From a virus, in the IMG/VR virus record IMGVR_UViG_3300035183_000174, positions 1 through 27,533 of that record: a stretch of DNA of 27,533 bases. The stretch is one strand, 5' to 3'. Below the pieces are notes generated by a model, which was given only the letters and a program-made list of their open reading frames with translations, was not told the DNA's origin and made no database searches. The first letter of the stretch is position 1; every line of letters starts with the position of its first letter. Positions 4,770 to 27,146 of the stretch are shown here, piece by piece. A program made the translations under genes and the position numbers.

Positions 4770-4789
4770 CACCTGGGGAGGGTACCGAG

Positions 4790-6091: not shown

Positions 6092-6121
6092 TTGCCAGGA
6101 AAAATCGCCTGTAGTTAGAAT
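6092..6121 (+). promoter_or_regulatory. Candidate sigma-70-type promoter for thyX and the late genes
   Basis: TTGCCA (6092-6097) and TAGAAT (6116-6121) are separated by 18 bp, a fair match to TTGACA-N17-TATAAT, in a locally AT-richer stretch downstream of the leftward terminator. A transcription start near 6128 would rule out the TTG at 6125 as the thyX start. No other promoter as good was seen between here and the end of the structural genes. Confidence 0.45.
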
Positions 6122-6169
6122 GCATTGACGTTTTTGGCTACTTTTTCATCCAAAAAGGGGTGCCCGGAG

Positions 6170-7222: not shown

Positions 7223-7233
7223 AAGGTGGCGTG

Positions 7234-9127: not shown

Positions 9128-9141
9128 AGGCAGGCTCGATA
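9127..9141 (+). promoter_or_regulatory. Ribosome-binding site and ATA start of the portal gene
   Basis: AAGGCAGG at 9127-9134 is followed after four bases by ATA 9139-9141, in frame with the portal. The next conventional in-frame start is ATG 9193. The only earlier one is ATG 9076, inside terL with no Shine-Dalgarno sequence. Confidence 0.7.
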
Positions 9142-10704
9142 GCACAGACTCAGAACAACACTGACCTGAAGGCTCTGCGGGAGCGGCGGCGAATGTTGCG
9201 TGCCCAGCTGGAGATCGTCCGGATGGAGCACGAGAAGAAGGTCTTGGAGAGCCTGATCGACGACAACAGCTACGAGCTGTGGTCCGCTCTGCGTCGTCAG
9301 TCCGAGGATGGCTTCTGGGTTCCAGTTGCCTCCTTTGGTGATCGCGCCCGTGGCCGCAATTATCCATTCTGGCAGACCCCTTCCGAGCTAGCCGAGCTGC
9401 GGCAGAAGTCGCGCGTGGTGTGTGTGACCAACGCGCACGTCAAGGGGTTGCTTCGCAACCTGACCAACTATGTGATCGGAAAGGGATTCAGCTACCAGGT
9501 CAGTTCCAAGGAACTGTCGGACACAGACTCTGAGGCGATCAAGGGCTGGATCACTCAGATTCAGGACGTGGTTGACCGCTTCCTGGAGACGAACCATTGG
9601 AACTCCTCCTCTGGCGCGCCGGACAGCTTGGTGGTCAACTCCAGTCGTGAGCGAGAGTGTTTCCGTCGGTTGATTCGGGACGGTGAGGTCTTCCTGCGGT
9701 TCTTCTACCAGGACGACGGCACCACGCTGGTCCGGTTCGTAGAGCCGGAGCAGGTGCAAGACCCTCCCGGGGCGGCCTTGACCACTGGCTGGTCCTTCGG
9801 CATCCGGCATCAGATGAGTCCCTACGAGGACGTGGAGGTGCCCCTGGAGTACCACCTGGTCTACCTTGACTCGACGCATGGCGCTCAAGGGGAGCTGGTG
9901 CCAGCGGGGCAAATCCTTCATCTGAAGGGGCCAGACACTGACTCGACCGTCAAGCGTGGCTCGCCGGAGTTTAGCTGGGACACTCTGGACGCTTTCCTAC
10001 GGGCGAGCAAGCTGCAACGAAACTTGTCGCTTGGCGCGGCGATTCGGGCCGCGACGGCTGAAATCTGGCAGTATGCCTCTGGCACACAGGCGCAGATTTC
10101 GGCGCTGGCGTCCAGCTTGAGCGAGTATTCCAGCATCAACCCAGTGACTGGAAACGTCGAGCGGGTGGAGCGGATCGCGCCAGGTACAATTCGCCGCATC
10201 CCTGCTGGCCAGCAGCTCGTTGGCCAGCCGCCTGATCAGACGATGAGCTACATCCAGGGCGTGCAAGCCGACCTGCGGCAAGGGGCATCCAGCCTGTGTG
10301 CTCCTGAATACTTGGTGTCTGCGGATGCGTCCAACGGGAACTACTCCAGCACCAAGGAGGCGTCGGCACCCTTTGTCAAGGCGGGCGAGAGCTGGCAGGA
10401 ATACCTTGTCGCGGCCTTTTCGCGGGTGCTCTGGAAGGCCATCAGCTGGGCAGCCCAGTGTGGGAAGCTGCCGCGTGAGGCCCTGGCGAAGATCGACCTG
10501 CAAGTCAAAGGCCCTGCGGTGCTGCACCGCAACGAGATCGAGAAGGCCCAGATCGACCAAATCCTGGTCGGCATCGGTGCCAAGGACCGCCAGACCGTGA
10601 GCGCTGAGTGGGGCCTGGACCCCGAACTGGTGCAGGCCAACAACGACCTGTGGAACCAACGAAACGTTCCCAACCTTCCGCCCCTGGACATGCCGCCGGA
10701 GTAA
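9139..10704 (+). CDS. Portal protein (ATA start)
   Basis: A 521-residue portal, the dodecameric ring at the capsid vertex through which TerL pumps DNA. Evidence: position directly after terL, family-like length, N-terminal helical segment (LRERRRMLRAQL), central stem/wing region, and the late-central stretch EYSSINPVTGNVERV, APGTIRRIPAGQQL, then SSLCAPEYLVSADASNGNYS followed by STKEASAPF. That last pattern, choosing a membrane of Asn/Ser-rich motif before a helical clip, is common in lambdoid/HK97-like portals. If it starts at ATA 9139, the gene begins 11 bp after the terL stop as MAQTQNNTDL; starting at ATG 9076 would require a 52-bp overlap and an N-terminus made of terL's last codons in another frame. 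Confidence 0.88.
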   Translation: MAQTQNNTDLKALRERRRMLRAQLEIVRMEHEKKVLESLIDDNSYELWSALRRQSEDGFWVPVASFGDRARGRNYPFWQTPSELAELRQKSRVVCVTNAHVKGLLRNLTNYVIGKGFSYQVSSKELSDTDSEAIKGWITQIQDVVDRFLETNHWNSSSGAPDSLVVNSSRERECFRRLIRDGEVFLRFFYQDDGTTLVRFVEPEQVQDPPGAALTTGWSFGIRHQMSPYEDVEVPLEYHLVYLDSTHGAQGELVPAGQILHLKGPDTDSTVKRGSPEFSWDTLDAFLRASKLQRNLSLGAAIRAATAEIWQYASGTQAQISALASSLSEYSSINPVTGNVERVERIAPGTIRRIPAGQQLVGQPPDQTMSYIQGVQADLRQGASSLCAPEYLVSADASNGNYSSTKEASAPFVKAGESWQEYLVAAFSRVLWKAISWAAQCGKLPREALAKIDLQVKGPAVLHRNEIEKAQIDQILVGIGAKDRQTVSAEWGLDPELVQANNDLWNQRNVPNLPPLDMPPE

Positions 10705-10706
10705 TC

Positions 10707-11615
10707 ATGACTGACCATCTGGAGTTGTGGAAGCGGACGCTGATCAATGTGGATCGTTCCATCCTGGTGATTGACCGAGTCATCGCCCTTGTGTGGCGAG
10801 CCCTCCGACACCTGATTGATCATTCGCAGGGCTACATCGCGGATTACAAGCGCGCCCTGGCCCTCTTGAGCCGGATGCCGACGTCGTTGGTGCAAGCCTT
10901 CTCTTCGGAGTTCAGTCGGCTGTACAAGCTGGGTTATCTCCAGGCACGCCAATTACTTTGGCCAAATATACTCTTGCGTACATCTGAGAGTCGTAGTAGT
11001 CTTCAGGAGCAGGGCATCGTCGGCTTGCAGCTAGGTGCAACTCAAACACCGCAGCTGGTCAACCTGGCAACCAGGCTGCGCGGCAAAAATCTCACAGATA
11101 CCAAGAAGCGCTCGCTGCTGAAGCAGATGCTGTTTCAGCCGCCGTCCAAGCAGGACGTGCTGCGGGTGATTTCGCAGTGGATCAGGCCGTCGGATTGGCA
11201 ATCCATCGGCGGTGCCGTTACGAAGCAGCCCCATGACTTGGCCAACGAGCTTGCCGCCGGGTTGGCTCGTGGAAAGAGTCCGCGTGAAGTGGCTCAGTTG
11301 ATCCTGCCCTACATGGAGGACAACCGAGTTCGGGCGCAGCGGACTGCTCGTACTTTTGGCATGGCGGTGGTCGGCCAGGCGCAGTTCGACTCATTTGAGG
11401 CGCTTGGCGACCTGGTGATTGGCTACCAGGTTCATGCCACCCTGGACCGCAACACCAGGCCAGAACATCGTCGCAGGGACGGGACGATCTACTACAAGCA
11501 GCCCAAGAGGGGTCAGAAGGGGCTTGACGAGATGCCCCGACCGCCGCGAGAGGCTGATGGTTCGATTGCCTGGAACTGTCGTTGCTATCTCACCCCGGTG
11601 TTGAGGGAGTTGTGA
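10707..11615 (+). CDS. Minor head protein, Mu gpF-like head morphogenesis domain
   Basis: A 302-residue protein from ATG 10707, two bases after the portal stop, with CCGGAG at 5-6 nt. The N-terminal 240 residues are helical and not conserved to my eye. The C-terminal ~75 residues are a Phage_Mu_F domain: VIGYQVHATLDRNTRPEHRR, a DGTIYY strand, and the closing AWNCRCYLTPVL with the two typical Cys. These proteins sit inside or on the procapsid near the portal and are needed for head assembly. The gene lies exactly where this family is found, between portal and protease. Its TGA overlaps the next ATA start. Confidence 0.88.
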   Translation: MTDHLELWKRTLINVDRSILVIDRVIALVWRALRHLIDHSQGYIADYKRALALLSRMPTSLVQAFSSEFSRLYKLGYLQARQLLWPNILLRTSESRSSLQEQGIVGLQLGATQTPQLVNLATRLRGKNLTDTKKRSLLKQMLFQPPSKQDVLRVISQWIRPSDWQSIGGAVTKQPHDLANELAAGLARGKSPREVAQLILPYMEDNRVRAQRTARTFGMAVVGQAQFDSFEALGDLVIGYQVHATLDRNTRPEHRRRDGTIYYKQPKRGQKGLDEMPRPPREADGSIAWNCRCYLTPVLREL

Positions 11616-11617
11616 TA
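11603..11617 (+). promoter_or_regulatory. Ribosome-binding site and ATA start of the protease gene
   Basis: GAGGGAG (11603-11609), five bases, then ATA 11615-11617, which overlaps the previous stop as TGATA, copying the common TGATG coupling. GTG 11612 is only 2 nt from the Shine-Dalgarno sequence, too close; TTG 11618 at 8 nt remains a possible alternative. Confidence 0.6.
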
Positions 11618-12718
11618 TTGCGCATCATCGAGGCCCCCATCAAGTCGGCTGTTCCGCTACAAGTGGATCGTGCCAACGGCGTGATCGAGGGCGTCAAGAT
11701 TTTGGGCGCTTCTTCGGCGAATGGCCGCTACTACACTCCCGAGGCGATGCGTCGGGCCATTGATGCGGGCCTGTACGAGGATGCCAAGGTCTACCTGGAT
11801 CATCCGTCGGCTGGTGAGAAGTTCCGGCCCGTTGAGCAGCTCTTCGGCAAGATTCGGAACGCTCGGCTCAATGGGGACTCGATCATTGGCGACCTGTATT
11901 TTGTGCGAGAACATCCTGTCGCGCCCCGCGTGTGCGAGGATTGCGAGCGTGCTCTTGGTCTTTTTGGCCTGTCGCACAATGCCGAAGCGGCGCAGTGGGA
12001 AGTGCGCGACGGGGTGCAGGTGATCACGGAGATTGCGAAGGTTTATTCAGTGGATTTGGTGTCTGACCCAGCCACAAACTCTAGTCTATGGGAGGCAAGA
12101 CCGATAACTCGAATCAAGTTCGCAGAGCTGTTGGATCGGCTCTCTGCCGACAGGAAATTGCCCAAGCGGGTGCGTCGGCGGTTGCTCGAAGTGGACGGCG
12201 ACATGCCGGCTGCGAGTGCAGAGTTGCCCGAGCCAGAGCCTGAAACCGACCCGATGGATGCGTTGAAAGATGGGTTCCGTGCCGCGATCATGGCAGCGGT
12301 CGATCAGGCTCTGGACGGTGACGAAGAAGCGTTGAAGCAGGTGGTCGAGCTGATCAAGACGCACCGCAAGGTGACTGCTGGCCAGGAGGAACCGCCAGCG
12401 GCGGACGACCAGATGGCGAGCGATGACGGGGAGCCTGCTGATGACCAGGCCGAGCAGAAGGAGTCGCGCAATCGCCCTGCTGCTGGCCTTACTGAGGCCA
12501 GGGCGGCTGCTCTGGTCAAAATCGCTGGGGTGGAAGACCCTGACACTCTGGTCAAGGCGGTTGCTGGTTTGAATGAAGAGCAGGCTTTGCGTGTGTTGGC
12601 CTGGGCCAAGGAGCGAGCCTCCAATTCGCGGCCTGGCGGAGCGCGTAGTCAAGGTGTTCGTGAGTCGGTCAGGTTGATCACCGACGGGAAGACCTTAGCT
12701 GAGGCAATTTTGAACTAG
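11615..12718 (+). CDS. Prohead protease with C-terminal scaffold-like region (ATA start)
   Basis: A 367-residue protein. Residues ~1-175 resemble prohead serine proteases of the herpesvirus-protease fold (phage U9/S78 types): IEGVKILGASSANGRYYTPE, AKVYLDHPS, FGKIRNARLNGDSIIGDLYF, FGLSHNA (candidate catalytic His) and VYSVDLVSDPATN (candidate Ser strand). Residues ~200-310 are acidic and Pro/Glu/Asp rich with many Ala, then a helical tail, as expected of an internal scaffold that the protease domain degrades during maturation. Fused protease-scaffold genes are common just before the capsid gene. Start choice is discussed at the ATA site; GTG 11612 would add one residue. Confidence 0.82.
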   Translation: MLRIIEAPIKSAVPLQVDRANGVIEGVKILGASSANGRYYTPEAMRRAIDAGLYEDAKVYLDHPSAGEKFRPVEQLFGKIRNARLNGDSIIGDLYFVREHPVAPRVCEDCERALGLFGLSHNAEAAQWEVRDGVQVITEIAKVYSVDLVSDPATNSSLWEARPITRIKFAELLDRLSADRKLPKRVRRRLLEVDGDMPAASAELPEPEPETDPMDALKDGFRAAIMAAVDQALDGDEEALKQVVELIKTHRKVTAGQEEPPAADDQMASDDGEPADDQAEQKESRNRPAAGLTEARAAALVKIAGVEDPDTLVKAVAGLNEEQALRVLAWAKERASNSRPGGARSQGVRESVRLITDGKTLAEAILN

Positions 12719-12719
12719 G

Positions 12720-12734
12720 AAGGGAGAGCAGATA
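12720..12734 (+). promoter_or_regulatory. Ribosome-binding site and ATA start of the 12732 gene
   Basis: AAGGGAG (12720-12726), five bases, then ATA 12732-12734, just after the protease stop at 12718. No ATG or GTG exists in frame for well over 40 bp; the first conventional codon is TTG 12774, without a Shine-Dalgarno sequence and in the middle of natural-looking protein (ILPEWLSRARLQYEKF). Confidence 0.75.
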
Positions 12735-13448
12735 AGAGACATCATCCTACCGGAATGGCTTTCGCGTGCGCGATTGCAGTATGAAAAGTTCGACGATTTC
12801 GACTGGTACATCTCTCCGCACTTCTGGACCTCTCTAGCTGCGGACGCGGGTGTATCGGCCCCAGCCGCCACTGACGCCAAGAACGGCGTCGTGTCGATGT
12901 CCACGGGGGCAACCGACAACAATGAAGTGATGGTCCGCAGCACGAATGAGGTTGCCCTGCTCCAGTCCGACTGCACGTTGATCTTCGAGGCGAGGATCAA
13001 GTTTGCCGAGGCCAACGGTGACGATGCCAACGTTGCCGTGGGCATGGCAGACGCTGCCGGTGCTGATTTGCTGCTGGACAACGGCGCGGGCGACAACATT
13101 GCGAACAGCGGGGTGCTGATCTACAAGGTGGACGGTGAAACCACCTGGCGCTGTGCTTGCAAGAACGGCTCCACGGTCAGGCGAACCACCTCGACGTTCA
13201 CTGCTGGCGGCAGCAGCTACCAGACCTTGCGAATCATTGGTCGTCCAGTGGATGGGTCCAACTACGAGTTCACCTACTTCGTGGACGACACTCAGCTGAT
13301 GGACAGCAACGGCTCCAAGATCAAGCACACCTTGAGCTTTGCGTCCGCGACTGAGATGCGCCTCGTGGCTGGCTATCTGAAGGCTGGCGGCGCGAACAGT
13401 GAAACACTGTTGCTGGATTACTGCTCTTTCGTTGCAGGGCGAGTCTAA
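12732..13448 (+). CDS. Probable capsid decoration protein, lectin-like beta fold (ATA start)
   Basis: A 238-residue protein encoded between the protease and the major capsid gene, the usual place for a head decoration protein. It is rich in beta-strand pattern: CTLIFEARIKFAEANGDDAN, VGMADAAGADLLLDNG, SGVLIYKVDGETTWRC, YQTLRIIGRPVDGSNYEFTY, TEMRLVAGYLKAGGAN, ETLLLDYCSFVAGRV. This looks like a concanavalin/LamG-type jelly roll, with alternating strands and Gly-Asn-Asp turns, and no signal peptide or membrane segment. Starting at ATA 12732 adds RDIILPEWLSRARLQYEKFD to the N-terminus. The exact capsid role is inferred from position. Confidence 0.65.
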   Translation: MRDIILPEWLSRARLQYEKFDDFDWYISPHFWTSLAADAGVSAPAATDAKNGVVSMSTGATDNNEVMVRSTNEVALLQSDCTLIFEARIKFAEANGDDANVAVGMADAAGADLLLDNGAGDNIANSGVLIYKVDGETTWRCACKNGSTVRRTTSTFTAGGSSYQTLRIIGRPVDGSNYEFTYFVDDTQLMDSNGSKIKHTLSFASATEMRLVAGYLKAGGANSETLLLDYCSFVAGRV

Positions 13449-13454
13449 TAGCTG

Positions 13455-13470
13455 AAGGAGATCAGAGATA
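13455..13470 (+). promoter_or_regulatory. Ribosome-binding site and ATA start of the major capsid gene
   Basis: AAGGAG (13455-13460), seven bases, then ATA 13468-13470. An in-frame TGA at 13453-13455 limits the start to this short stretch or later. The first conventional codon is GTG 13534, which would delete 22 residues that read as real protein (NSRELKRQCELQGTGVVC). Confidence 0.78.
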
Positions 13471-14664
13471 CCAGGGACCAGATGCGTCAATTCGCGTGAG
13501 CTGAAGCGGCAATGCGAACTACAGGGAACCGGGGTGGTTTGCCGCCACCTGTCTGAGGCTCTTGAGAACGGTCACTTGCGACCGGAGGATTTCAGCTTCC
13601 GCGATCTTGCCGAAGCCTTTCTTGGCGAAGAGTGGGTTCGGAACCTGCGCCCCAAGAGCGGGCGTCTGTACCGTCGCAACGAACTTCTCGAAGCCGGCGC
13701 AGTCCGCTACTCGGACTTCTCTCACATCACCGGCCAGATTCTGTTCAGCACTATCCGGCAGGGCTACCAAGACGAGCAGTTCGTCTTCACGCCCGTGGTG
13801 CCGGTGGTGCAGACTGACAATCAGGACATGGAGAAGATTCCTGGCATCTCCGAGATCGGGGATGAAATGCTGGTTGTCAGCGAAGGCAATGACTACCCCA
13901 CCGTGGGAGTCAGTGAAGATTACATCGAGGTTTCCGCCAAGCAAAAACGCGGCATGAGGATCGCCCTGACTCGTGAGGCGATCTTCGGCGACAAGACCGG
14001 CTTGCTGCTTCAGCGTGCTCGACGCGCTGGGTTCTACGCTGGCCTGAACCTCGAAAAGCGAGTGATTGACGCCCTGATCGACGAGAACGCCGGGGCTGTC
14101 TCTGCGGTGGCTGGTGGGCACCGTTATCACTGGAAGGGTGTCAGCTATGCCACTTACCAGACCTCTACCCCGTGGAAGAACGTCACCACGAGCAATGCGC
14201 TGGTCGATTGGACGGACATCGAGAACGCACTGCTCACCTTGTCCGCGATTACTGACCCCTACACTGGGGAGCCGATTCTAATTACGCCCAAGCATCTCGT
14301 GGTCACTCCGCAGAATCTGTTCACTGCCAAGCGGATCGTGAGCGCAACGGAAATCCGGGTTGCGACTCCTGGGTATGCGACCTCGGGGAACCCGACTCAG
14401 ACTATTGCGGCGAACCCGGTGAGCAACTACCAAATCTTGTCGAGCAATCTCCTGGCTGCCCGTGCCGCGACGGATACGGATTGGTGGCTGGGTGACGTGA
14501 GCGAGTTGCTCCGGCGGTTTGTGAACTGGGACATTGAGATGGAAGAGGCGTCGCCCAACCATCCGGATGCGTTCAACCGTGACATCGTCTTCCAGGTGAA
14601 GGTCACTGTCAAGGATGCGGTGAGCGTGGTCGAACCCAGGGCGATGAACGAGAGCCGCGCGTAA
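13468..14664 (+). CDS. Major capsid protein, HK97-like fold (ATA start)
   Basis: A 398-residue protein. It follows portal, protease and decoration genes and has the features of an HK97-type capsid subunit: a helical N-terminal arm (SRELKRQCELQ, LAEAFLGEEWVRNL), a central region with the YSDFSHITGQILFSTIRQGY segment, GDKTGLLLQRARRAGFYAGL for the spine helix, and a C-terminal A-domain with PYTGEPILITPKHLVVTPQN. It ends in strand-rich sequence (DIVFQVKVTVKDAVSV). It should be the most abundant virion protein, so its start codon matters: from ATA it begins MPGTRCVNSREL. Part of the N-terminus may be removed by the protease. Confidence 0.85.
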   Translation: MPGTRCVNSRELKRQCELQGTGVVCRHLSEALENGHLRPEDFSFRDLAEAFLGEEWVRNLRPKSGRLYRRNELLEAGAVRYSDFSHITGQILFSTIRQGYQDEQFVFTPVVPVVQTDNQDMEKIPGISEIGDEMLVVSEGNDYPTVGVSEDYIEVSAKQKRGMRIALTREAIFGDKTGLLLQRARRAGFYAGLNLEKRVIDALIDENAGAVSAVAGGHRYHWKGVSYATYQTSTPWKNVTTSNALVDWTDIENALLTLSAITDPYTGEPILITPKHLVVTPQNLFTAKRIVSATEIRVATPGYATSGNPTQTIAANPVSNYQILSSNLLAARAATDTDWWLGDVSELLRRFVNWDIEMEEASPNHPDAFNRDIVFQVKVTVKDAVSVVEPRAMNESRA

Positions 14665-14678
14665 AAGGATGACCTCAC

Positions 14679-15050
14679 ATGGGGAGAAAGAAGAAGATGC
14701 CAGTGCAAGAAGTGGAAACTGATTATTTGGACTTCGACAAGACGCCAGATGCCGCCAGTGAGCTGGCCAAGCTGCGTGCGGAGAATACCCGACTGATGCA
14801 CGAGCTAGCCAGCAAAAATGCAGCGGAGGTTGCGTTACCAAACAGCGGCAGGGGTCGCTACCGAGTGGAGCTGCGGCACAGTCCAGCTCCGGTCAAGAGG
14901 CTGGAGCTGGACGCCGACAGTGAGCAAGATGCTTGGGACCGATTCCTGCAAGCCAACTTTCAGAAGCAAGGCAACCAAGCAGGTTGGCGGCGGCTTCAAG
15001 AGCAGGTGGCGCGTGGTGAGCTGGATCGGGTGATCGTCAAGGTGGGTTGA
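14679..15050 (+). CDS. Unknown virion-region protein with a short coiled coil
   Basis: A 123-residue protein from ATG 14679 (AAAAGGATG upstream at a long spacing). It has a basic N-terminus (MGRKKKMP), then a helical, probably coiled-coil stretch around residues 27-48 (ASELAKLRAENTRLMHEL) and a C-terminal strand-helix region (RYRVELRHSPAPVKRLELD, then DAWDRFLQANF). No known family is recognised. It sits directly after the capsid gene, where head-tail connector components or small accessory head proteins are usually encoded. The TGA overlaps the next ATG. Confidence 0.7.
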   Translation: MGRKKKMPVQEVETDYLDFDKTPDAASELAKLRAENTRLMHELASKNAAEVALPNSGRGRYRVELRHSPAPVKRLELDADSEQDAWDRFLQANFQKQGNQAGWRRLQEQVARGELDRVIVKVG

Positions 15051-15277
15051 TGGCGAGCTATGAGGACAACCTGAAAGCCGTCAAGGAGAACATTGCCGCC
15101 CGTCTGGCGGAGATCACTGCCAGCCCCAAGCCGTCTTATTCGATTGATGGCCAGTCAGTGAGCTGGACGGAGTATTTCAACTCTCTGGTCCAGCAGTTAA
15201 AGGAGATCAATCAGCAGTTAGAGGCCGTCGGATCGGTGGCGGTGGCCCCCTGGGAGATTCGGCAGCGTGCGATGTGA
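15050..15277 (+). CDS. Small helical protein of the head-tail connector region
   Basis: A 75-residue protein from ATG 15050, coupled to the previous gene by a TGATG-type overlap. Two helices (ASYEDNLKAVKENIAARLAE and YFNSLVQQLKEINQQLEAV) flank the strand-like PSYSIDGQSVSWTEY. Small proteins with a SIDGQSVSW-type segment occur in phage head-tail regions, but I cannot name the function. It ends 7 bp before the tRNA gene. Confidence 0.7.
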   Translation: MASYEDNLKAVKENIAARLAEITASPKPSYSIDGQSVSWTEYFNSLVQQLKEINQQLEAVGSVAVAPWEIRQRAM

Positions 15278-15284
15278 GCGCCGA

Positions 15285-15356
15285 CCCGGGGTAGAGTAGT
15301 GGTAGCTCGCCAGTCCTATCAGCTGGAGGTCGCAGGTTCGATTCCTGCCCCCGGAA
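15285..15356 (+). tRNA. Initiator-type tRNA with anticodon UAU (reads AUA)
   Basis: A full cloverleaf can be drawn: acceptor CCCGGGG (15285-15291) with CCCCGGA (15349-15355); D stem GAGT/GCTC, D loop AGTGGTA; anticodon stem CCAGT/GCTGG (15310-15314, 15322-15326); loop CCTATCA; variable AGGTC; T stem GCAGG/CCTGC with loop TTCGATT; discriminator A 15356. CCA is not encoded. Position 1:72 is a C:A mismatch and 11:24 is A:U, two hallmarks of bacterial initiator tRNA, and GCTCG and AGGTC match E. coli tRNA-fMet. The anticodon is TAT (15317-15319), not CAT. Unusual: C33 in place of U33, C37 in place of a purine, and no run of three G:C pairs at 29-31:39-41 (here A:U, G:C, U:G). It fills the only gap in this stretch of structural genes, so it is co-transcribed with them. 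Confidence 0.85.
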
Positions 15357-15372
15357 CTATGAGGGCGAGATT

Positions 15373-16014
15373 GTGCATCTGAAGATTGCTGATGACTACA
15401 AGGTCTTGGACGGCCTCGAAACTGTGACGTACTGCACTCTGCATGACGGGCAGATCAGCCGGTGGCCGTTCCACAACAGCGCCTTGAGACGTGCTCTGAC
15501 GCAGCACGAGTTATTTGCTTCAGCGGGGAGCTACACGAGCCAGGATGTCAGCTGGGTGCTCCCCAACTGGTTTGGCTTGCAGCCCAAGCCGGGAGACTGG
15601 CTACAAGACCTGAAGGGTGACTGCTGGACCATCCTGACCGTCAATTGGTGGGCTCTGCGCCGGACTTGGCAGTTGGTCACGCGCAACCTGGCACTCAATG
15701 CCGGCTTGAACCAGGAGATCAGCGTGTGGCGGGCATTGCACCGGGCGGATTCCACGAGCAGTGACACGCCAATATGGGCTTGTGTTTACAGTTCGGTTCC
15801 GGCCAGAATTCAGGAGACTGATGCGGCGGCTCTGGAAGAGCAGGGCAAGCGGTTGACGTGGCGCTCGTACACTGTGATCCTTGGGCACAAGCTTGTTCTG
15901 ACGGTGAATGACCAGATCAGGGACAAGCATGGGAGAATCTACGAGGTGGTTAGTTGGGCTCACCTGGACCGGATTGACGAGCTGCCGCAGGTGACATGTG
16001 TGAGGAAGACATGA
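15373..16014 (+). CDS. Probable head-closure/connector protein
   Basis: A 213-residue protein from GTG 15373, with GAGGG 7 nt upstream. It has a Trp-rich beta pattern: TYCTLHDGQISRWPFHNSAL, WVLPNWFGLQPKPGDWLQDL, CWTILTVNWWALRRTWQL, then a second half that repeats the theme (YTVILGHKLVLTVNDQIRDK, IYEVVSWAHLDRID). Strand content with a short domain that measures itself out as PGDW...DG/DKHGRIYEV is typical of stopper or head-closure proteins (SPP1 gp16 / HK97 gp7 role). Its position after the capsid and before the HK97 gp10-like gene agrees. It ends in an ATGA overlap with the next gene. Confidence 0.6.
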   Translation: MHLKIADDYKVLDGLETVTYCTLHDGQISRWPFHNSALRRALTQHELFASAGSYTSQDVSWVLPNWFGLQPKPGDWLQDLKGDCWTILTVNWWALRRTWQLVTRNLALNAGLNQEISVWRALHRADSTSSDTPIWACVYSSVPARIQETDAAALEEQGKRLTWRSYTVILGHKLVLTVNDQIRDKHGRIYEVVSWAHLDRIDELPQVTCVRKT

Positions 16015-16382
16015 CGACTCGATGGCGCGGCAGTGATGCCATACAGGAGATTCGCAAGAAGGCAGCCCAGAGGCTGCTGGCGATGGCCGCGCAATTCGTC
16101 ACGGCTCACATGGATTTCCTCAATGTCAGCAACCCTCGCCCGTATGTCACTCCGAGCCAGCCAGGCGAGTACCCACGCAAGCGTACTGGCTTTGGTCAGA
16201 GGTCGGTGTCATTCCAGCCGACCAGTGTGGCGGGTGTGATTTCTGCCGGCCTGAAGATTCGGGTTGGCTACCTGGCCAACGCTGAGTACATGCTGATCTT
16301 GGAGCTGAGCCGTCGGCGGCTAGGTCTGCTGGAAACCTTGCGTCGGACGAAATCGCGGTTACAGGTGATTGCACAGCAATGA
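16011..16382 (+). CDS. HK97 gp10-like neck / tail-joining protein
   Basis: A 123-residue protein from ATG 16011, coupled by an ATGA overlap to the previous gene; GAGGAAGAC precedes the start. It has the family order: helix (IQEIRKKAAQRLLAMAAQFV), the loop segment RPYVTPSQPGEYPRKRTG, a strand pair (RSVSFQPTSVAGVISAGLKI, RVGYLANAEYMLILEL), and a C-terminal RRRLGLLETLRRTKS. HK97 gp10-type proteins connect the connector to the tail terminator. It ends in ATGA with the next gene. Confidence 0.72.
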   Translation: MTTRWRGSDAIQEIRKKAAQRLLAMAAQFVTAHMDFLNVSNPRPYVTPSQPGEYPRKRTGFGQRSVSFQPTSVAGVISAGLKIRVGYLANAEYMLILELSRRRLGLLETLRRTKSRLQVIAQQ

Positions 16383-16819
16383 CCGAGAACGAATTCGAGG
16401 TACTCCGTGCTTTCAAGCGCCGTTGGGACACGAGCCCGCTGACTCGGTTGGTCCCTGGCGGTCTGTGGTATGGCCGTGTTCCAGACAGTGCCGCCAGCCC
16501 GTATGCACGGATTGCGTTGCAGTCGGAGAGGCCGCAGTGGACCAGTGGCCGGGACTACACTCAGGAGATCAATGTCACCATCTCGGTCTGGAACTCGCCT
16601 GGTTCCGGGCTGGATGCGTTTTCTGAGATCATCGAGGCGTTGTCTTCGACTTACGACAACCAGGAGAAATTCTTCCCCCTGTCGGGTGGTCGCCGGTGTC
16701 TGTGGCTGGAGCCACAGACTAGCGAGATTCAGCAGGATGGCAGCCAGGACGCCCAGCCGGTGCTAGTTGCGTCTGGGTCGTGGAGAGTGCTACTGCAAGC
16801 GACGAGGAGGAACCGATAG
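16379..16819 (+). CDS. Probable tail terminator protein
   Basis: A 146-residue protein from ATG 16379 (ATGA overlap). It has alpha-beta pattern with strands YARIALQSERPQWTSG, YTQEINVTISVWNSPG and SWRVLLQATRRN around a helix (LDAFSEIIEALSSTYDN). This is the pattern of tail-terminator/tail-completion proteins (lambda gpU, SPP1 gp17 role), which cap the tail tube and join it to the head. Position, after a gp10-like gene and before tail tube genes, agrees. Its TAG overlaps the next ATA start. Confidence 0.65.
   Translation: MTENEFEVLRAFKRRWDTSPLTRLVPGGLWYGRVPDSAASPYARIALQSERPQWTSGRDYTQEINVTISVWNSPGSGLDAFSEIIEALSSTYDNQEKFFPLSGGRRCLWLEPQTSEIQQDGSQDAQPVLVASGSWRVLLQATRRNR
16804..16818 (+). promoter_or_regulatory. 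Ribosome-binding site and ATA start of the 16816 gene
   Basis: GAGGAGG (16804-16810), five bases, then ATA 16816-16818, overlapping the previous stop as ATAG, equivalent to a classic ATGA overlap with one base changed. TTG 16828 is the only nearby conventional alternative, 17 nt from the Shine-Dalgarno sequence. Confidence 0.78.
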
Positions 16820-17352
16820 CGAACACCTTGAACGCGACGCTCGGTATTACGGGCTACGCCACGCTCCAGTACGACTCGGAGATCACTCAGTTGATCGACA
16901 CCATCTCGATTGGAGCGAACAATTTTGACTCGCTTGAGTATGCGATCACGCATGGTGCGAGCGGTGCGCTGAAGTGCAACGAGTGGTTCCGCGATGAGCG
17001 TACCGTGGCCGCCAGTGCGGCGGACAACCTTGACCTGGCCGGCTCCCTGAAGAATCCGTTCGGCGAGACGATCACCTTCACTCACATTCGTGTGATCATC
17101 CTGGCCATTGACGCGCCGGACGGGGCCAAGTCGCTTTACTTTGGCCCTCGTGGCCAGGCCAACGCCTGGCAAGGCCCCTTTGCTGGGGTGGGAGCCACGG
17201 ATTACATCACGGTGTCGGACAGTTTGTTTCTGGCGAATTTGTCGGGAACCAATGGCTGGCCGGTGACGGCGGGGACTGGCGATGTGCTCGGGATTTACAA
17301 CCCCGGGGCTTCGGCTGTGACCTACCGAATCTGGCTCCTTGGCCAAGTGTAG
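16816..17352 (+). CDS. Virion structural protein of unknown type (ATA start)
   Basis: A 178-residue beta-rich protein beginning MANTLNATLGITGYATLQYD if read from ATA. Strand-turn segments include ITFTHIRVIILAIDAPDGAK, LYFGPRGQANAWQGPF, DYITVSDSLFLAN, and a closing AVTYRIWLLGQV. There are no charged helical tails, signal peptide or membrane segment. It is encoded between the tail terminator and the tail tube protein, so it is probably a tail or decoration component, or a second tail-tube-type subunit. I cannot place it in a family. Confidence 0.65.
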   Translation: MANTLNATLGITGYATLQYDSEITQLIDTISIGANNFDSLEYAITHGASGALKCNEWFRDERTVAASAADNLDLAGSLKNPFGETITFTHIRVIILAIDAPDGAKSLYFGPRGQANAWQGPFAGVGATDYITVSDSLFLANLSGTNGWPVTAGTGDVLGIYNPGASAVTYRIWLLGQV

Positions 17353-17354
17353 TA

Positions 17355-17369
17355 GAGGAGTGAGCGATA
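17355..17369 (+). promoter_or_regulatory. Ribosome-binding site and ATA start of the tail tube gene
   Basis: GAGGAG (17355-17360), six bases, then ATA 17367-17369. The first in-frame conventional start is ATG 17442, 75 bp further and without its own Shine-Dalgarno sequence; it would remove the conserved-looking N-terminus VFHKGNGGRVVAGGVTLDVL. Confidence 0.8.
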
Positions 17370-17747
17370 CCTGTTTTTCACAAGGGCAACGGAGGTAGAG
17401 TAGTCGCCGGTGGCGTCACCCTGGACGTACTTGACTGGAAGATGACCAAGAAAAACCGCCTGTCTGAGACTACGCACTCGGGCAGCGGTGGGAACGCGCA
17501 GTACATCAAGACGGTCAACGAATACTCCGGCTCTGTGACTGCCAACTGGGACAGCACTGCGGTCCCCGAAGCGGTGATTGATGTGGGATCGACTGTCAAC
17601 TTGGTGCTCTACATGGGTGACAGCAACAAAGCCTACTCGATTTCGGCCATTATTGAGACGCTGGAGCCATCGGTGCCAAATCAGCAGGGGCACGTTACCT
17701 ACTCTTTCACATGGAAAGGCATTGGCCCGATGACTAACCCGTCGTAG
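17367..17747 (+). CDS. Probable major tail tube protein (ATA start)
   Basis: A 126-residue protein, beginning MPVFHKGNGGRVVAGGVTLD from ATA. It has the order of a small tail-tube fold: N-terminal strand pair (GGVTLDVLDWKM), a loop with TTHSGSGG, NEYSGSVTANWDS, the long helix-like VIDVGSTVNLVLYMG, the strand SISAIIETLEPSV, and the C-terminal HVTYSFTWKGIGP, a typical ending for siphovirus tube proteins. It lies directly before the tail chaperone gene pair and the tape measure, where the major tail protein is expected. Truncated start at ATG 17442 would lose 25 residues. Confidence 0.75.
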   Translation: MPVFHKGNGGRVVAGGVTLDVLDWKMTKKNRLSETTHSGSGGNAQYIKTVNEYSGSVTANWDSTAVPEAVIDVGSTVNLVLYMGDSNKAYSISAIIETLEPSVPNQQGHVTYSFTWKGIGPMTNPS

Positions 17748-17762
17748 TAGGGAGAAGACCAA

Positions 17763-18209
17763 GTGGATTTGAACACAGCCAACGATCTGGTAACTGGTGC
17801 GCCTGGCACCATCACGCTGGGCGGCAGGCTGTTCCTGATCGGGCAGCCGACCACGCAAGACTTTGTCGCGTTGCGGCGGCATCTACACAGTCTTGCTGTC
17901 AAGAAGGCCAAGCCTCCGCTGGCCGCCATCGCTGAGGAGCTGAGCAAGCTGCCGGCTCATCTACAGAGTGAGGCGATCAAGGCTGCGGTGGCTCAGCAGG
18001 CGAGTGGCCCGCAAGTGACGAATGAGGCGGTTGCGGAGCAGCTGTACACACCGGAAGGGTGTGCCTTCTGGACCTGGCTGTTGATTTTCAAGAACCACAA
18101 GGACGTCAAGTTTGAAGAGATCAAGGCTTTGGTGTCTGAGGAGAACGTGAATGAGGTGCTTGCTTCGTTGCTGAAGGCAAGCAGCCTTGAGGCTATCGCC
18201 CCAAACTAG
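17763..18209 (+). CDS. Tail assembly chaperone, short product (G-like)
   Basis: A 148-residue protein from GTG 17763, with GGGAG upstream. After a strand-rich start (GTITLGGRLFLIGQPTTQDF) it is helical, with ELSKLPAHLQSEAIKAAVAQ, GCAFWTWLLIF and ALVSEENVNEVLASLLKASS. Such proteins coat the tape measure protein and recruit tail tube subunits. The gene ends at TAG 18207-18209, immediately after a -1 slippery heptamer, so a share of ribosomes is expected to continue into the downstream frame. The gene sits directly before the tape measure, the usual position. Confidence 0.85.
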   Translation: MDLNTANDLVTGAPGTITLGGRLFLIGQPTTQDFVALRRHLHSLAVKKAKPPLAAIAEELSKLPAHLQSEAIKAAVAQQASGPQVTNEAVAEQLYTPEGCAFWTWLLIFKNHKDVKFEEIKALVSEENVNEVLASLLKASSLEAIAPN

Positions 18210-18436
18210 ACTGGGGCGATTGGCTCTTCGATCCGCCGGGAACCAATCGCCCAAAATTCTTCCGTGAGTGGGCGACCAATTGCTTCTGGCCGCCCCAGAT
18301 CGTTGCTCAGCTGTCCATTCCTCAACTCTTTGCCCTGGAGGTCCAACCGCCCTCGCTGGAAGAAGTGCTAGACATGCTCGATAAACAGCGGGCCGCGAAG
18401 GGCTTGCCACCGATCAAAAGGAGCTACCGATCATGA
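17763..18436 (+). CDS. Tail assembly chaperone, -1 frameshift fusion (GT-like)
   Basis: By slipping back one base at CCCAAAC (18200-18206), ribosomes bypass the TAG and read an open frame to TGA 18434-18436, about 76 further codons (total near 224 residues). The added part is coherent protein: DWGDWLFDPPGTNRPKFF, REWATNCFWPPQIVAQLSIP, then SLEEVLDMLDKQRAAKGLPP. It has no ATG with a ribosome-binding site of its own. This is the lambda G/GT arrangement, in which the fusion product bridges tape measure and tube subunits at a fixed ratio to the short form. The end overlaps the tape measure start (ATG 18433). Confidence 0.82.
18200..18252 (+). promoter_or_regulatory. Programmed -1 ribosomal frameshift signal
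   Basis: The heptamer C CCA AAC (18200-18206) has the canonical X XXY YYZ form in the zero frame and is followed at once by the TAG stop. Seven bases after the heptamer begins a perfect 10-bp stem, GGGCGATTGG (18214-18223) with CCAATCGCCC (18243-18252), enclosing 19 nt. Heptamer, spacer and stem-loop all fit known bacterial frameshift sites. Confidence 0.87.
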
Positions 18437-19590
18437 GTGGCGCGCTGGCACAGCAGTACATCGAATTCGTGGCCAGGGGGCTTGACCAGGTTGAGGCCGG
18501 TCTGAGGGGCTTGGAGAGTAAGCTCGCTTCGGTCAGCAGGCTTACCGATGTAGCCAAGCTGGGCTTCACCACTCTCACCAGCACCGTTGGCGGCTTCGTG
18601 ACGGCAGGTCTGCTTGGAACTACCCACGCGGAGCAGCTTGGGCAGGCCATGCAGAATTTGTCGCGTGAGATCGCTGGCATCTTCCTGCCGGTGATTGAGA
18701 AGGTCATCGACGGCATCAAGAAGGTGACTAGCTGGTTCGAGCACCTTTCGGGGCATCAACAAGATCAGATCATGCGCTGGACGGCGGCAGCAGGCGCTGC
18801 CCTGCTGGTGGTTGCCATCTTCCCCAAGGTGGTCACTGGAGTCACCGCCGTCATCGGAGCAGTTCGGGCGCTCACTGCCGCTTTGGCTACTGCTGGGGCC
18901 GTAACTGGAGTTGCGTCCGGTGGTCTGACCACCATCCTCGGCATCGTGGCCACCCTGGTGGCTGCCTTCATCGGCTTCGGCGCGGCCAGTGAGGAGGGGT
19001 TTGGCAGCCTATCCAAGCTGATTGAGCCGATTCAGGCTGCCTTCGAGAAGATCACGAATGCGGCTGCCCCTCTGTTCTCTTCCCTGGACAAGATCGGCGA
19101 TCTGTTCACGCGGCTCGTTGATTCGGCTGTCGGGCCATTGACCCTGGTGATGAACAACCTGGCTGAGGTGATCACCCTGGTGGTCAACGTTCTTGTCGTC
19201 TTGCAGTCCATCCTGTCTCCGGTGGGCGAACTGATCATGCAGTTGATCTCTTTCGTGACCGAGTTGGCTTCCAAGGTGGTGAGTTTTCTGGCCCCTGCCT
19301 TTGAAGCTGTCGTTGCACCGTTGAAGCAGGCGAACGCCCTCCTTGAACGGCTTGGCCTGTTGGCCAGCAGTCAATCGAAGAGCGCCAAGAGCGAGCCTCA
19401 TCGTAGGACGGAAGGCACGGGTGGCCAGTTTGAGGATGTGCAGGCGACCTTCCGGCGGATTCAGTCCGCCGTGTTGAAGTCGGACACCAAGCGGATTGAC
19501 GAGCGCCAGCTAGAGACGTTGGGCGAGATCAATACATCCGTTCGGGACGTGGAAGCGGCCATCGAACGGTTATACCCGGCTGTTGCGTGA
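18433..19590 (+). CDS. Tape measure protein
   Basis: A 385-residue protein from ATG 18433, overlapping the chaperone fusion stop; AAAAGGAG lies upstream at a longish spacing. It has helical N- and C-terminal parts and a hydrophobic middle (AAAGAALLVVAIFPKVVTGV, LTTILGIVATLVAAFIGFGA, LVVNVLVVLQSILSPVGELI), typical of tape measure proteins that pass into the host membrane at infection. At about 0.15 nm per residue it predicts a tail near 58 nm, which is short for a siphovirus. Its position after the frameshifted chaperone supports the call. Confidence 0.87.
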   Translation: MSGALAQQYIEFVARGLDQVEAGLRGLESKLASVSRLTDVAKLGFTTLTSTVGGFVTAGLLGTTHAEQLGQAMQNLSREIAGIFLPVIEKVIDGIKKVTSWFEHLSGHQQDQIMRWTAAAGAALLVVAIFPKVVTGVTAVIGAVRALTAALATAGAVTGVASGGLTTILGIVATLVAAFIGFGAASEEGFGSLSKLIEPIQAAFEKITNAAAPLFSSLDKIGDLFTRLVDSAVGPLTLVMNNLAEVITLVVNVLVVLQSILSPVGELIMQLISFVTELASKVVSFLAPAFEAVVAPLKQANALLERLGLLASSQSKSAKSEPHRRTEGTGGQFEDVQATFRRIQSAVLKSDTKRIDERQLETLGEINTSVRDVEAAIERLYPAVA

Positions 19591-19596
19591 AGTACC

Positions 19597-20433
19597 ATGC
19601 CCACGACTGCGAATCTCGGCATCCAGTACACTGAGTATTTCGAGGGGTATCGTGAATCCTGGTCGAACGACGGGGTAGCGGAGGCGGTGCGCATCCTGGA
19701 GTGTGCTTGGAGGGATCGCAAAAACTTCATCCGGGCCATGCTTGGCGGAGTGACCGCCGGGATCAATCGCATTCCGCCGGACGTGCATCCAGATTACAGT
19801 CTACGGGCCTTGGCTGTGGGTGGCGGCGGTGGCCTGGTAGCCACCAACGTAGAGCTGATTGCTGGCGTGGGGGTTCCGGCGGCGAACAGTCCGAGAGGGA
19901 TGATTTCCTACGACCGAGCCCGCTTTGCGGTGACGTACAAGGCGGTCCCCTACAACATCATCGGTGGCACCTACCCGAACGATCTGGAGATTGACCGGTA
20001 CATCATCCGCAAGCTCAACTACGCAATCGAGTCGCTGACCATTCCTGGTCAGTGCTTGAAGTTCTCCGACGGGACCAAGATCAACGAGCAGATGACCATC
20101 CTGATGCCCACCCAGGAGGTCATCTACACATGGGTGATGGCTCCCAGGGTGCCCACCTCCGCGATCAACAACTGCATTGGAAAGGTGAACGACGCCCTCT
20201 TCGACGGCATCTACCCGCCGGAGACGCTGCTGATGGTTGCCCCAGATGTTGACCCGTACTGGCACCCTGCCCAAGAGGCGGTGGTGTGGAACATCACCTA
20301 CAAATGGCTGTACCGTGCAACCGGGTGGAACAAGTTCTACCGCAGAAGTACCAACACATTTGCACCCGTGGTTGGCGTCGCTACCAACGAGAAGCCGTAC
20401 AAGACTGCTAACTTCAAGACCTTGTTCCAGTAG
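19597..20433 (+). CDS. Tail protein, first of two tandem paralogs
   Basis: A 278-residue protein from ATG 19597. It shares most of its length with the next gene (identical EYFEGYRESWSNDG, AMLGGVT, GINRIPPDVHPDY, RARFAVTYKAVPYNI, WNITYKWLYRATGW). Beta-strand pattern with conserved Tyr, Trp and Gly; no catalytic motif or signal peptide. It follows the tape measure, where distal tail, baseplate hub or host-contact proteins are encoded, and it could be a distal-tail-type ring component. I cannot assign a family. The variable regions relative to its paralog are the middle Gly-rich loop and the C-terminus. Confidence 0.75.
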   Translation: MPTTANLGIQYTEYFEGYRESWSNDGVAEAVRILECAWRDRKNFIRAMLGGVTAGINRIPPDVHPDYSLRALAVGGGGGLVATNVELIAGVGVPAANSPRGMISYDRARFAVTYKAVPYNIIGGTYPNDLEIDRYIIRKLNYAIESLTIPGQCLKFSDGTKINEQMTILMPTQEVIYTWVMAPRVPTSAINNCIGKVNDALFDGIYPPETLLMVAPDVDPYWHPAQEAVVWNITYKWLYRATGWNKFYRRSTNTFAPVVGVATNEKPYKTANFKTLFQ

Positions 20434-20534
20434 GATCGCGTTGGGGTGGATGAGTGTGTGGCGCGTGACTACCAGCTGCTGAGCACACACAAGCTGCCGT
20501 TGAAGGTTAGCAGCCGATTGTTGAGTGAGGTGGT

Positions 20535-21374: not shown

Positions 21375-21383
21375 GGCCGTGAG

Positions 21384-24719: not shown

Positions 24720-25154
24720 GTGCCTGTGCTCGTTAACAGACTGTTGACCGAGATTCGCAAGACGACCCTGCCGATCACGGGGGTAGGTGTGTGCAGCCGA
24801 CAACCGGAGGACACGAGCGCGGCTGGCGGAAACCTCTACTGGACAAGCCACCCCAAGGACGGCAAGTGGGTCAAGTTCACCTGGAGCAGTCCGCCGACCG
24901 AGGAGCAGAGGAGTCAAGCTGCGGCCATCGTGGCACAATATGACAGCAGGCCGACGACCGAGGAGAAGCTAAACAAGGCACAGGTTTCGGTCAGTGCTCT
25001 GGCCGCGCTACTCGTGAAGTCAAGCAGGCTGTGGGCTGGGTTGGCACCTGAGAAAAAGGCGTCGTTGGACAGGGTAATCGAACAGGCTGCCATGCAAGTG
25101 CTGGGGGTGATGGATGAAGCTGCTGGAAGTGGCGGAGCAAATCCAAACGGGTGA
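24720..25154 (+). CDS. Small protein following the fibre gene
   Basis: A 144-residue protein. GTG 24720 begins right after the fibre stop; GTG 24726 is an alternative. The N-terminal part has KTTLPITGVGVCSRQPEDTS and LYWTSHPKDGKWVKFTWSSP, followed by the helical TEEQRSQAAAIVAQYDSRPT. The latter resembles the small XkdW-type and fibre-associated proteins where a short helix follows a compact strand region. The C-terminal half is helical (ALAALLVKSSRLWAGLAPEK and onward) and could form coiled coil. Possibly a fibre chaperone or assembly factor; not certain. Confidence 0.65.
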   Translation: MPVLVNRLLTEIRKTTLPITGVGVCSRQPEDTSAAGGNLYWTSHPKDGKWVKFTWSSPPTEEQRSQAAAIVAQYDSRPTTEEKLNKAQVSVSALAALLVKSSRLWAGLAPEKKASLDRVIEQAAMQVLGVMDEAAGSGGANPNG

Positions 25155-25689
25155 CATCTTCCTCTGTCGGGGCAGTGTCTGGTGGGGAGCAAAGATCATC
25201 CGACTGAAGACCCAGTCCGTCTACAGTCATGTGGGGGTAGCCATCTGGATCACAGCCGACAGCTGCCGTCGGCTGGCCATCCTGGAGGCCACTTACCGTG
25301 GAGTGCGTATGTTTCCACTGGACCTGTACCTGGTCCACTGTCAGAGGTGGAAGACGCAGGTGGACTGGTGGGTGGTCACAGACAGCAGTATCAACCGCGA
25401 GAAGATTGCGAGCTACTGTCTGAAGCAGTGGGGCAAGCCCTACGCTTCGTTGTGGCAGCTGTTCTGGTCCTTCGGCTGGTTGGGCAGCTTGTTTCGGAAG
25501 TGTTCCGGATTCTCGGCTGACCTGGAGAAAGATCGGTTCTTCTGCTCGGAGCTAGTCGCGTCCGCCTTGCGGGCGGCTGGCTGGGTTCCGCCTCCTGGCG
25601 ACCCGAGTGATCGTGAGCCAGCTTTGACCGACCCTGGAGTAGTGGCACTCTTCCCTTGTTTGCAGAGGCGAGGGAGACTGGAGCTGTGA
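25114..25689 (+). CDS. Permuted papain-fold hydrolase (YiiX / NlpC-P60 superfamily)
   Basis: A 191-residue protein from ATG 25114, overlapping the previous gene by 41 bp. The order of motifs is the circularly permuted form: IQTGDIFLCRGSVWWGAKII, then YSHVGVAIWI with the candidate catalytic His, and RFFCSELVASALRAAGWVP with the candidate Cys. Trp-rich segments (WGKPYASLWQLFWSFGWLGS) lie between. Members of this superfamily act on peptidoglycan peptides or other amide and ester bonds. In the last part of the late genes it is a candidate for host wall degradation at entry or lysis. No signal peptide is visible. Confidence 0.72.
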   Translation: MKLLEVAEQIQTGDIFLCRGSVWWGAKIIRLKTQSVYSHVGVAIWITADSCRRLAILEATYRGVRMFPLDLYLVHCQRWKTQVDWWVVTDSSINREKIASYCLKQWGKPYASLWQLFWSFGWLGSLFRKCSGFSADLEKDRFFCSELVASALRAAGWVPPPGDPSDREPALTDPGVVALFPCLQRRGRLEL

Positions 25690-25787: not shown

Positions 25788-25790
25788 ATA
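25776..25790 (+). promoter_or_regulatory. Ribosome-binding site and ATA start of the secreted protease
   Basis: GAGGA (25776-25780), seven bases, then ATA 25788-25790, directly abutting the TAG of the preceding gene. Only this start gives the protein its signal peptide. The first conventional in-frame codon is GTG 25872, 84 bp further, after the signal peptide. Confidence 0.85.
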
Positions 25791-27146
25791 GCTCGCCTCC
25801 TCTTTTCCCTGGTTGTCGCCCTGTTCCTTACTGGCCTTAGCCTGGCCCAGCCAAAGGTTAGTGAAGGACCAGTGGCGGGGTATTGCCCAACCTGTCCACC
25901 GCCTCGGCAGCAGCCGCCAAAGATCAGTGAGTCGCCGCCAGCGGTTGTCCCAGACCAGAGAATCTGGTCCGCATCGGTTCGCGTGCTGGCTTACGGCGGG
26001 CGGTATTCGGCGAGCGGGTCAGGCGTGCTGGTGTCTTCACGGGCAATCATCACCTGCGCGCATGTGGTGAGCGACAGTAACAAGTTCGCGGTCTACTTCC
26101 CATCGTCGCCATCGCAGGCCATGCCAGCTTCCCTGATCGCGGCGGACTGGATACTCGACCTGGCCCTTCTTGGCCTGGACGCTGAGGCCAGCGTGGCTCC
26201 CGTGTCGTTGTCTTCGGGTGACGCGGTGCCTGGCGAGCAGGTGACGGGAATCGGCTACCCTGGTGGCACTGGGCCGCAGATCAAGACAGGGCGAGTAGTT
26301 GGCTTCGCAGGCTCGTTTGTGCAGTGTGGCTTTATCGCCCAGAACGGTGACTCGGGTGGCGGTCTGTTTCGCTCGGACGGATCGTTGGCTGGCGTGATCT
26401 CGCGGACGGTGAGCCGCAATCTGCTCAATCGGCCTGAGTACAGTGAGGGGGCTGGGGTGTCGGCAATTCGGCGCTTTCTCGCCGAGCCAAGGTGCGCCCC
26501 CTGGTTCAGTGTCAGGCCGGCGGAACCGCCGAGGCCGCCCAGCTTGGAACCTGAGAGGAGGCCACCGGAGCCGCCCAGGTCAAGCGGGCCAGACCTGAAC
26601 GAAATCCGCAAGCAGCTGGATCGCGTGCAGACTGTCATTGCGGACATTCAGGCCAAGCGTGAGGGGCTGGACCAGCGGCTGAAGGAGACTGAAGAGTTTG
26701 CGAAAGAGCAAGCCAAGCGGGCGGAGAGAACTGTGGGTCAACTGCAAGATTCTCTCTCTTTGGCCAAGCCGGTGTTGGATCATGCACCGAGAATTGCGTC
26801 CTGGCTGCCCTGGTTGCCGGTGATTGCCGGTGCGGCTGCCTCGGGTAATCTGGCTCCACTGGTTCTCGTTGCTGGTAGAGCGATGTTGTCTCGCTACCGG
26901 AGGAAGCAGAGTCAGGATGAGCCGAAGAGGCCGGAGCCGTTTGTTGGCCCGGTGGTGACGGAGCCGGCTCCCCGGCAACGGGAGTACGTCCCAGTGGAGC
27001 AGCCCAACGGCAAGCTGAAAGCATTGGAAGAAGCCATGAAGAAGGTCGCCCAGGATTACCCTGGCGCGATCAACGTGGTTCGCACAATCGAATCGGTTGC
27101 GGATCAGATTTACTCTGGTATGGAGAAGAAGAATGCCTCCGCTTGA
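25788..27146 (+). CDS. Secreted trypsin-like serine protease with coiled coil and membrane segment (ATA start)
   Basis: A 452-residue protein. Residues 1-20 from ATA form a signal peptide (MARLLFSLVVALFLTGLSLA, cleavage likely before QPK). Residues ~65-225 are an S1-type protease: GSGVLVSSRAIITCAHVV gives catalytic His 92, ILDLALLGL gives Asp 124, and AQNGDSGGGLF gives Ser 189 with the GDSGG motif. A Pro-rich linker follows, then a coiled coil at ~265-320 (QKREGLDQRLKETEE region) and a hydrophobic segment at ~340-367 (WLPWLPVIAGAAASG and onward), then a charged tail. It would be exported and possibly anchored. A protease with this design fits host surface or S-layer attack, lysis, or inactivation of host proteins. 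It ends 14 bp inside the next gene. Confidence 0.85.
   Translation: MARLLFSLVVALFLTGLSLAQPKVSEGPVAGYCPTCPPPRQQPPKISESPPAVVPDQRIWSASVRVLAYGGRYSASGSGVLVSSRAIITCAHVVSDSNKFAVYFPSSPSQAMPASLIAADWILDLALLGLDAEASVAPVSLSSGDAVPGEQVTGIGYPGGTGPQIKTGRVVGFAGSFVQCGFIAQNGDSGGGLFRSDGSLAGVISRTVSRNLLNRPEYSEGAGVSAIRRFLAEPRCAPWFSVRPAEPPRPPSLEPERRPPEPPRSSGPDLNEIRKQLDRVQTVIADIQAKREGLDQRLKETEEFAKEQAKRAERTVGQLQDSLSLAKPVLDHAPRIASWLPWLPVIAGAAASGNLAPLVLVAGRAMLSRYRRKQSQDEPKRPEPFVGPVVTEPAPRQREYVPVEQPNGKLKALEEAMKKVAQDYPGAINVVRTIESVADQIYSGMEKKNASA

Follow-up and report, generated by a model that had tools for sequence, protein, structure and literature searches.

Which task would a tRNA with the anticodon UAU perform in the middle of a phage virion operon? 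The question is raised by IMG/VR virus record IMGVR_UViG_3300035183_000174, a stretch of 27.5 kb with a G+C content of 60% that was analysed as a whole and is called the window here. Its sole tRNA gene lies between a virion-operon gene that ends at 15277 and another that begins at 15373. The surrounding operon contains terminase, portal, Mu-F-like and capsid genes, and its further genes are taken to be tail genes; these neighbors bear out the position inside a virion operon that an initial annotation of this DNA had given. A DNA search of INPHARED with the window found no near relative. On sequence grounds, planctomycete bacteria are the likely host, because the best chromosomal relative of the capsid protein (43%) is encoded in a Thermoguttaceae MAG. 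Two adjacent virion-operon genes (19597-20433 and 20535-21374) are paralogous, with very similar N-termini. Two repeat-rich, low-complexity regions (1-2200 and 5190-5400; CAGCC/TGTCAAC-like and TGCAGTTCTGTGC-like) hold no obvious gene. The coordinates of the tRNA and of the genes discussed below are collected in Table 1.

Table 1. The tRNA gene of the window and the genes with putative ATA starts or an exchange of the start codon
Feature	Position	Strand	Evidence or start region
Initiator-type tRNA(UAU)	15285..15356	+	ARAGORN, Rfam, profiles, free fold, relatives
Anticodon TAT (U34 A35 U36), loop CCUAUCA	15317..15319	+	ARAGORN, Rfam alignment
Portal protein gene	9139..10704	+	Start ATA 9139; upstream ATG at 9076
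Head-operon gene (phrog_29592)	11615..12718	+	ATA 11615 overlaps previous stop (TGATA)
Head-operon gene preceding capsid gene	12732..13448	+	ATA 12732, kept in four relatives
Major capsid protein gene	13468..14664	+	ATA 13468 behind AAGGAG; ATA in four relatives
Virion-operon gene (phrog_22694)	16816..17352	+	ATA behind GAGGAGG; ATAG overlap with previous stop
Minor-tail-like gene (weak phrog_290 match)	17367..17747	+	ATA behind GAGGAG, conserved
Tape-measure-like gene (by position)	18433..19590	+	ATG in window and L017, ATA in L016
Gene with start-codon exchange	25114..25689	+	ATG in window, ATA in L016 and L017
Trypsin-like protease gene	25788..27146	+	ATA right after in-frame TAG

The tRNA, which reads CCCGGGG UA GAGU AGUGGUA GCUC G CCAGU CCUAUCA GCUGG AGGUC GCAGG UUCGAUU CCUGC CCCCGGA A, matches Rfam RF00005 at 15285-15356 with 56.5 bits (gathering score 29) and is called tRNA-Ile(tat) by ARAGORN at 15285-15357. 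C1 and A72 are unpaired, and the free fold is the same cloverleaf with 1:72 open. The D stem consists of G10:C25, A11:U24, G12:C23 and U13.G22, the variable loop is AGGUC, position 73 is A, and CCA is not encoded. In the anticodon stem, A29:U41, G30:C40 and U31.G39 leave two of the three G:C pairs of initiators missing, and the loop C32 C33 U34 A35 U36 C37 A38 is without U33 and without a purine at 37; both C33 and C37 are unusual. The C1:A72 mismatch, A11:U24 and the anticodon UAU reported in the initial annotation are all seen in the sequence, and the resemblance to tRNA-fMet that it noted in the D stem and variable loop corresponds to an initiator-type D arm and AGGUC. The initiator-type identity that it assigned stands, with the incomplete G:C motif, C33 and C37 as departures that it had not recorded.

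Is this an initiator or an elongator? Features described for initiators are an open 1:72, A11:U24 and three G:C pairs (PMC7949028). All three contigs covering the locus (the window, L016 and L017) contain the tRNA; in them, position 1:72 is C/A, A/A and C/A while every other pair is kept, and the purine 11:pyrimidine 24 combination is A11:U24 throughout. One compensatory change distinguishes the three tRNAs (G4:C69 to A4:U69), together with U13.G22 to C:G. This comparison of three sequences is descriptive, and a shuffle control (174/500) does not distinguish the pattern. The run of three consecutive G:C pairs at 29-31:39-41 is absent, G30:C40 alone being kept, and the anticodon is UAU instead of CAU. 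A29:U41 is also present in several planctomycete initiators and has a precedent in the phylum; U31.G39 stays unusual. Because the three G:C pairs are incomplete, the tRNA is labeled initiator-type rather than full tRNA-fMet, and the missing pairs, C33 and C37 count against the initiator reading.

Four profiles were made from tRNAs of planctomycete genomes (27 initiator, 14 Ile, 27 elongator Met and 69 other sequences). With 44.5 bits, the initiator profile fits the window tRNA best; the scores are 12.7 for the Ile profile, 22.1 for elongator Met and 26.3 for the other elongators, in small models whose initiator set was partly chosen by the D-arm motif and by construction favors that arm. Despite these caveats the gap between initiator and elongator scores is clear. 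An elongator-type phage tRNA-Ile(UAU), from L217, scores 10.9 bits as an initiator and 39.9 as another elongator.

These scores bear directly on the reading of the tRNA as an elongator tRNA-Ile for internal AUA codons, which was named in the initial annotation as the result that would speak against an initiator. ARAGORN, which takes the name tRNA-Ile from the anticodon, and the existence of elongator-type phage tRNA-Ile(UAU) genes (L217, L221) would fit it. However, the body scores as an initiator where that of L217 does the opposite, and the paired 1:72 and pyrimidine 11:purine 24 of an elongator, both present in L217, are lacking here. Pairs C4:G69 and U12:A23 belong to the determinants of bacterial tRNA-Ile. 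Among these two and C29:G41, A37 and A38, which are likewise determinants of bacterial tRNA-Ile (PMC9976931), the window tRNA possesses A38 alone. Internal AUA is moreover nearly absent from the window (7/7694 codons), and an elongator role is highly improbable.

If the tRNA starts translation, matching start codons should be sought among the genes around it. Seven genes of the window appear to start with ATA (Table 1), each with a stop codon near upstream and behind a Shine-Dalgarno-like stretch whose pairing amounts to -5.9 to -13.1 kcal/mol. ATA occupies about 7/28 gene starts, compared with the 7/7694 internal codons (Fisher p = 1e-14), in an assignment of starts made by eye with ATA in mind; for this reason the case rests on conservation in relatives. 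The rarity of internal AUA may be due in part to G+C content. Two of the seven are weaker. The ATA at 11615 is the same in four relatives and is ambiguous, with TTG at 11618 as an alternative start. That at 25788 rests on the N-terminus IARLLFSLVVALFLTGLSLAQ of the protease read from it, which is signal-peptide-like as judged by eye, the sole relative found being truncated there. No ATA start falls among 8 genes at 2355-7595, against 7 among 20 virion-operon genes at 9139-25788; with such small numbers, a restriction to late genes is a trend only. No clear ATA starts were seen in L401.

Five contigs about 80% identical to the window (L003, L006, L015, L016 and L017) served as close relatives, and every ATA start that they cover is ATA in them. 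Compared with L016, start ATA is kept in 6/6 cases and internal Ile codons are identical in 135/325 (42%); the corresponding values for L017, a comparison not independent of the former, are 6/6 and 121/292 (41%). At 18433 and 25114, ATG and ATA replace each other among the contigs, which points to a start codon, since such an exchange is not expected of an Ile codon. From ATA to the next usual start, codons changed mainly synonymously, indicating purifying selection. This is clearest in the capsid gene, where codons 2-22 differ from relatives by 6-11 synonymous and 0-2 nonsynonymous changes and the N-terminal stretch differs from L016 by 10 and 0, respectively; in the portal gene the synonymous excess is less clear-cut.

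The same comparisons weigh on the suspicion that the ATA starts are an artefact of reading and that the true starts are ATG, GTG or TTG codons up- or downstream. Such codons do exist, as the TTG right behind the ATA at 11615 and the ATG at 9076 upstream of 9139 illustrate. Yet the selection on the codons in between, together with the invariance of ATA in all relatives that cover it, argues for translation from ATA. In L003, L006 and L017 an in-frame TAG immediately precedes the portal ATA, and the TTG at 16828, four codons downstream of the start at 16816, is TTA in relatives. It is scarcely credible on this evidence that the ATA starts are spurious, and the seven mentioned in the initial annotation are supported by enrichment and, at the six that close relatives cover, by conservation, less firmly at 11615 and 25788.

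In distant relatives (roughly 25-58% identity; viral contigs and planctomycete genomes), capsid, portal and protease-like genes start with ATG or GTG where readable, and tRNA(UAU) was not found in these relatives, several of which are fragments. The joint occurrence of tRNA and ATA starts, suggested earlier as a check, was thus found in close relatives, and neither was found in distant ones.

Further cases were sought by degenerate pattern scans of 2.9 million viral contigs, in which most matches were not tRNAs and the real ones were retained. Initiator-like UAU tRNAs occur in L182 (C1/A72), L184 (G1/A72, C33), L295/L301, L304 and L308 (U1-A72), the last being the least certain with 11.4 bits as an initiator. 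L182 is an unrelated phage contig in which the gene next downstream of the tRNA encodes a terminase small subunit. Its first codon after an in-frame stop is ATA, behind GGGGTGAT, while, among 47 homologues with an alignable residue 1, 45 begin with ATG, GTG or TTG, one with NTG and one with ATT. Inside its genes L182 uses ATA freely (45/84 Ile codons), so that a scarcity of internal AUA characterizes the window lineage and is not a requirement. In L295/L301, L304 and L308, no clear ATA starts were found in the short stretches examined, which, together with the ambiguous L184, counts against the link between tRNA and ATA starts. Initiator-like UAU tRNAs thus appear sporadically in phages, with putative ATA starts alongside in at least two lineages.

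Several single observations accompany these scans. A homologue of the terminase small subunit in L270 has an apparent ATT start behind a AGGAGTGAT-like sequence. On the minus strand of L182 (2257-2586), a regulator-like gene, for which no homologue was found, has its best start at an ATA behind AAAGGAG. An ATA at 8997 of L184 was set aside as an unproven start, GTG following directly. In about 85,000 species scanned, 97 pattern matches included full-length initiator-like UAU tRNAs in Arsenophonus and one Gemmatimonadales MAG only. The Arsenophonus endosymbiont of Aleurodicus floccissimus has a second, otherwise canonical initiator tRNA with TAT (L092/L161) beside a CAT copy (L157). Gemmatimonadales MAG CSMAG_591 has an initiator-like tRNA with a TAT anticodon (L062); none of the other matches found in this MAG was both initiator-like and similarly strong.

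To our knowledge, CAU is the anticodon of initiator tRNAs in bacteria and phages, and it is this CAU initiator that reads non-AUG starts, as near-cognate codons. The ATA starts could accordingly be real and yet be read weakly by the host CAU initiator as a means of tuning expression, with the phage tRNA doing another job. Rare non-AUG starts exist in bacteria, one terminase homologue reads as an ATT start, and the fairly strong Shine-Dalgarno pairing in the window could offset a weak codon. Such a scheme would nevertheless give a weak start to the capsid gene, which as a rule is one of the most strongly expressed genes of a virion, and would leave the UAU anticodon unexplained, whereas the ATA starts track a tRNA with the matching anticodon in a pairing that recurs in the unrelated L182. 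We regard weak reading by the host initiator as improbable.

Instead, the phage-encoded initiator-type tRNA(UAU) very probably initiates translation at the AUA codons of a group of virion genes, as the initial annotation had proposed; its classification, the conserved ATA starts, the co-occurrence of both and the recurrence in L182 all speak for this. The tRNA would be excised from the late polycistronic transcript, supplied with CCA by a host enzyme and charged with Met or Ile by a host synthetase. It would then be formylated because pair 1:72 is open, a feature that predicts formylation (PMC7949028), and IF2 would bring it to the 30S P site. There, U34-A35-U36 would pair with an A-U-A positioned by the Shine-Dalgarno sequence. 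The host CAU initiator would form a C.A mismatch at position 3 of AUA, and tRNA(UAU) could read AUG too, by U.G wobble. At the first two codon positions IF3 admits Watson-Crick pairing alone, and at the third it favors strong pairs (PMC10158994). When translation was reconstituted from E. coli components and initiated with N-acetylproline, AUA/UAU gave 39.1% full-length product compared with 22.5% for AUG/CAU (PMC10158994), and because of this product AUA:UAU can be considered a competent start pair.

Charging seems the weakest step of the proposed chain, since C34 is absent and so are most determinants of bacterial tRNA-Ile (PMC9976931). MetRS uses C34, A35, U36 and A73, and C34 is normally needed. 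Because of the initiator body, A35, U36 and A73, we lean slightly toward Met rather than Ile, as a guess.

The unusual loop also admits another history, in which the tRNA replaces a host initiator cut by a host tRNase, its altered loop (C33, U34, C37) being resistant, and AUA starts came later since AUA was read best. For phage tRNAs with altered loops, an escape from VapC-type nucleases has been proposed, and initiator tRNA is among the targets of some of these enzymes (PMC10264068). U34 can also wobble-read AUG. By itself, however, resistance accounts neither for the conserved ATA codons nor for the ATG/ATA exchange, and it calls on a hypothetical nuclease. It overlaps with AUA initiation rather than excluding it, and as an explanation of its own it has but a slim chance. 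Initiation at AUA by the phage tRNA may serve as a phage-private channel, in which an initiator tRNA from the same transcript, combined with a start codon rare in the host and used largely by virion genes, would make capsid production dependent on the phage's own tRNA and insulate it from depletion of the host initiator. That such a channel exists and arose at least twice, in the window lineage and in L182, has about an even chance of being correct.

If AUA initiation is confirmed, phage recoding would extend from stop codons to start codons, and phage tRNAs would acquire one more function. The tRNA would also offer a natural test of the features that the ribosome needs for initiation, having one of three G:C pairs and C33, and the ATA starts would be a warning for gene finders that exclude them. 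The initial annotation knew of no described case; likewise, a literature search, for which subscription papers were largely out of reach, found no natural AUA initiator described from a phage or bacterium. A 2026 paper speculates that a tRNA-fMet(CAU) with a 4-bp stem might read AUA (PMC13092985).

Among 50,697 phage records, the nearest sequences are initiator-like tRNA-Met(CAU) genes such as those of Rhizobium phage RHph_TM3_3_3 and Pseudanabaena phage Pan5 (83-84% identity over 92-97% of the gene). They share with the window tRNA the initiator-type D arm, the CCAG/CUGG ends of the anticodon stem and a similar variable loop, but differ in having CAU, U33 and A37, and no UAU was present among the matches read. 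Bacterial tRNA-fMet, from E. coli as well as Planctomycetota, has the same open 1:72, A11:U24, AGGUC variable loop and G30:C40, whereas the window tRNA has UAU in place of CAU, C33, C37 and one of the three G:C pairs. In the mitochondria of tunicates and some bivalves, tRNA-Met(UAU) exists beside tRNA-Met(CAU); AUA encodes Met inside genes there as well, and the initiator role of tRNA-Met(UAU) is unsettled (PMC3022732). The window tRNA is unlike it, with internal AUA rare and a body of the bacterial initiator type. The principle is the same as in engineered initiators with orthogonal start codons, in which anticodon and start codon were changed together (PMC10158994, PMC13232202). These are laboratory constructs, whereas tRNA(UAU) belongs to a natural genome, where we infer that it works as an initiator with an altered anticodon and a start codon to match.
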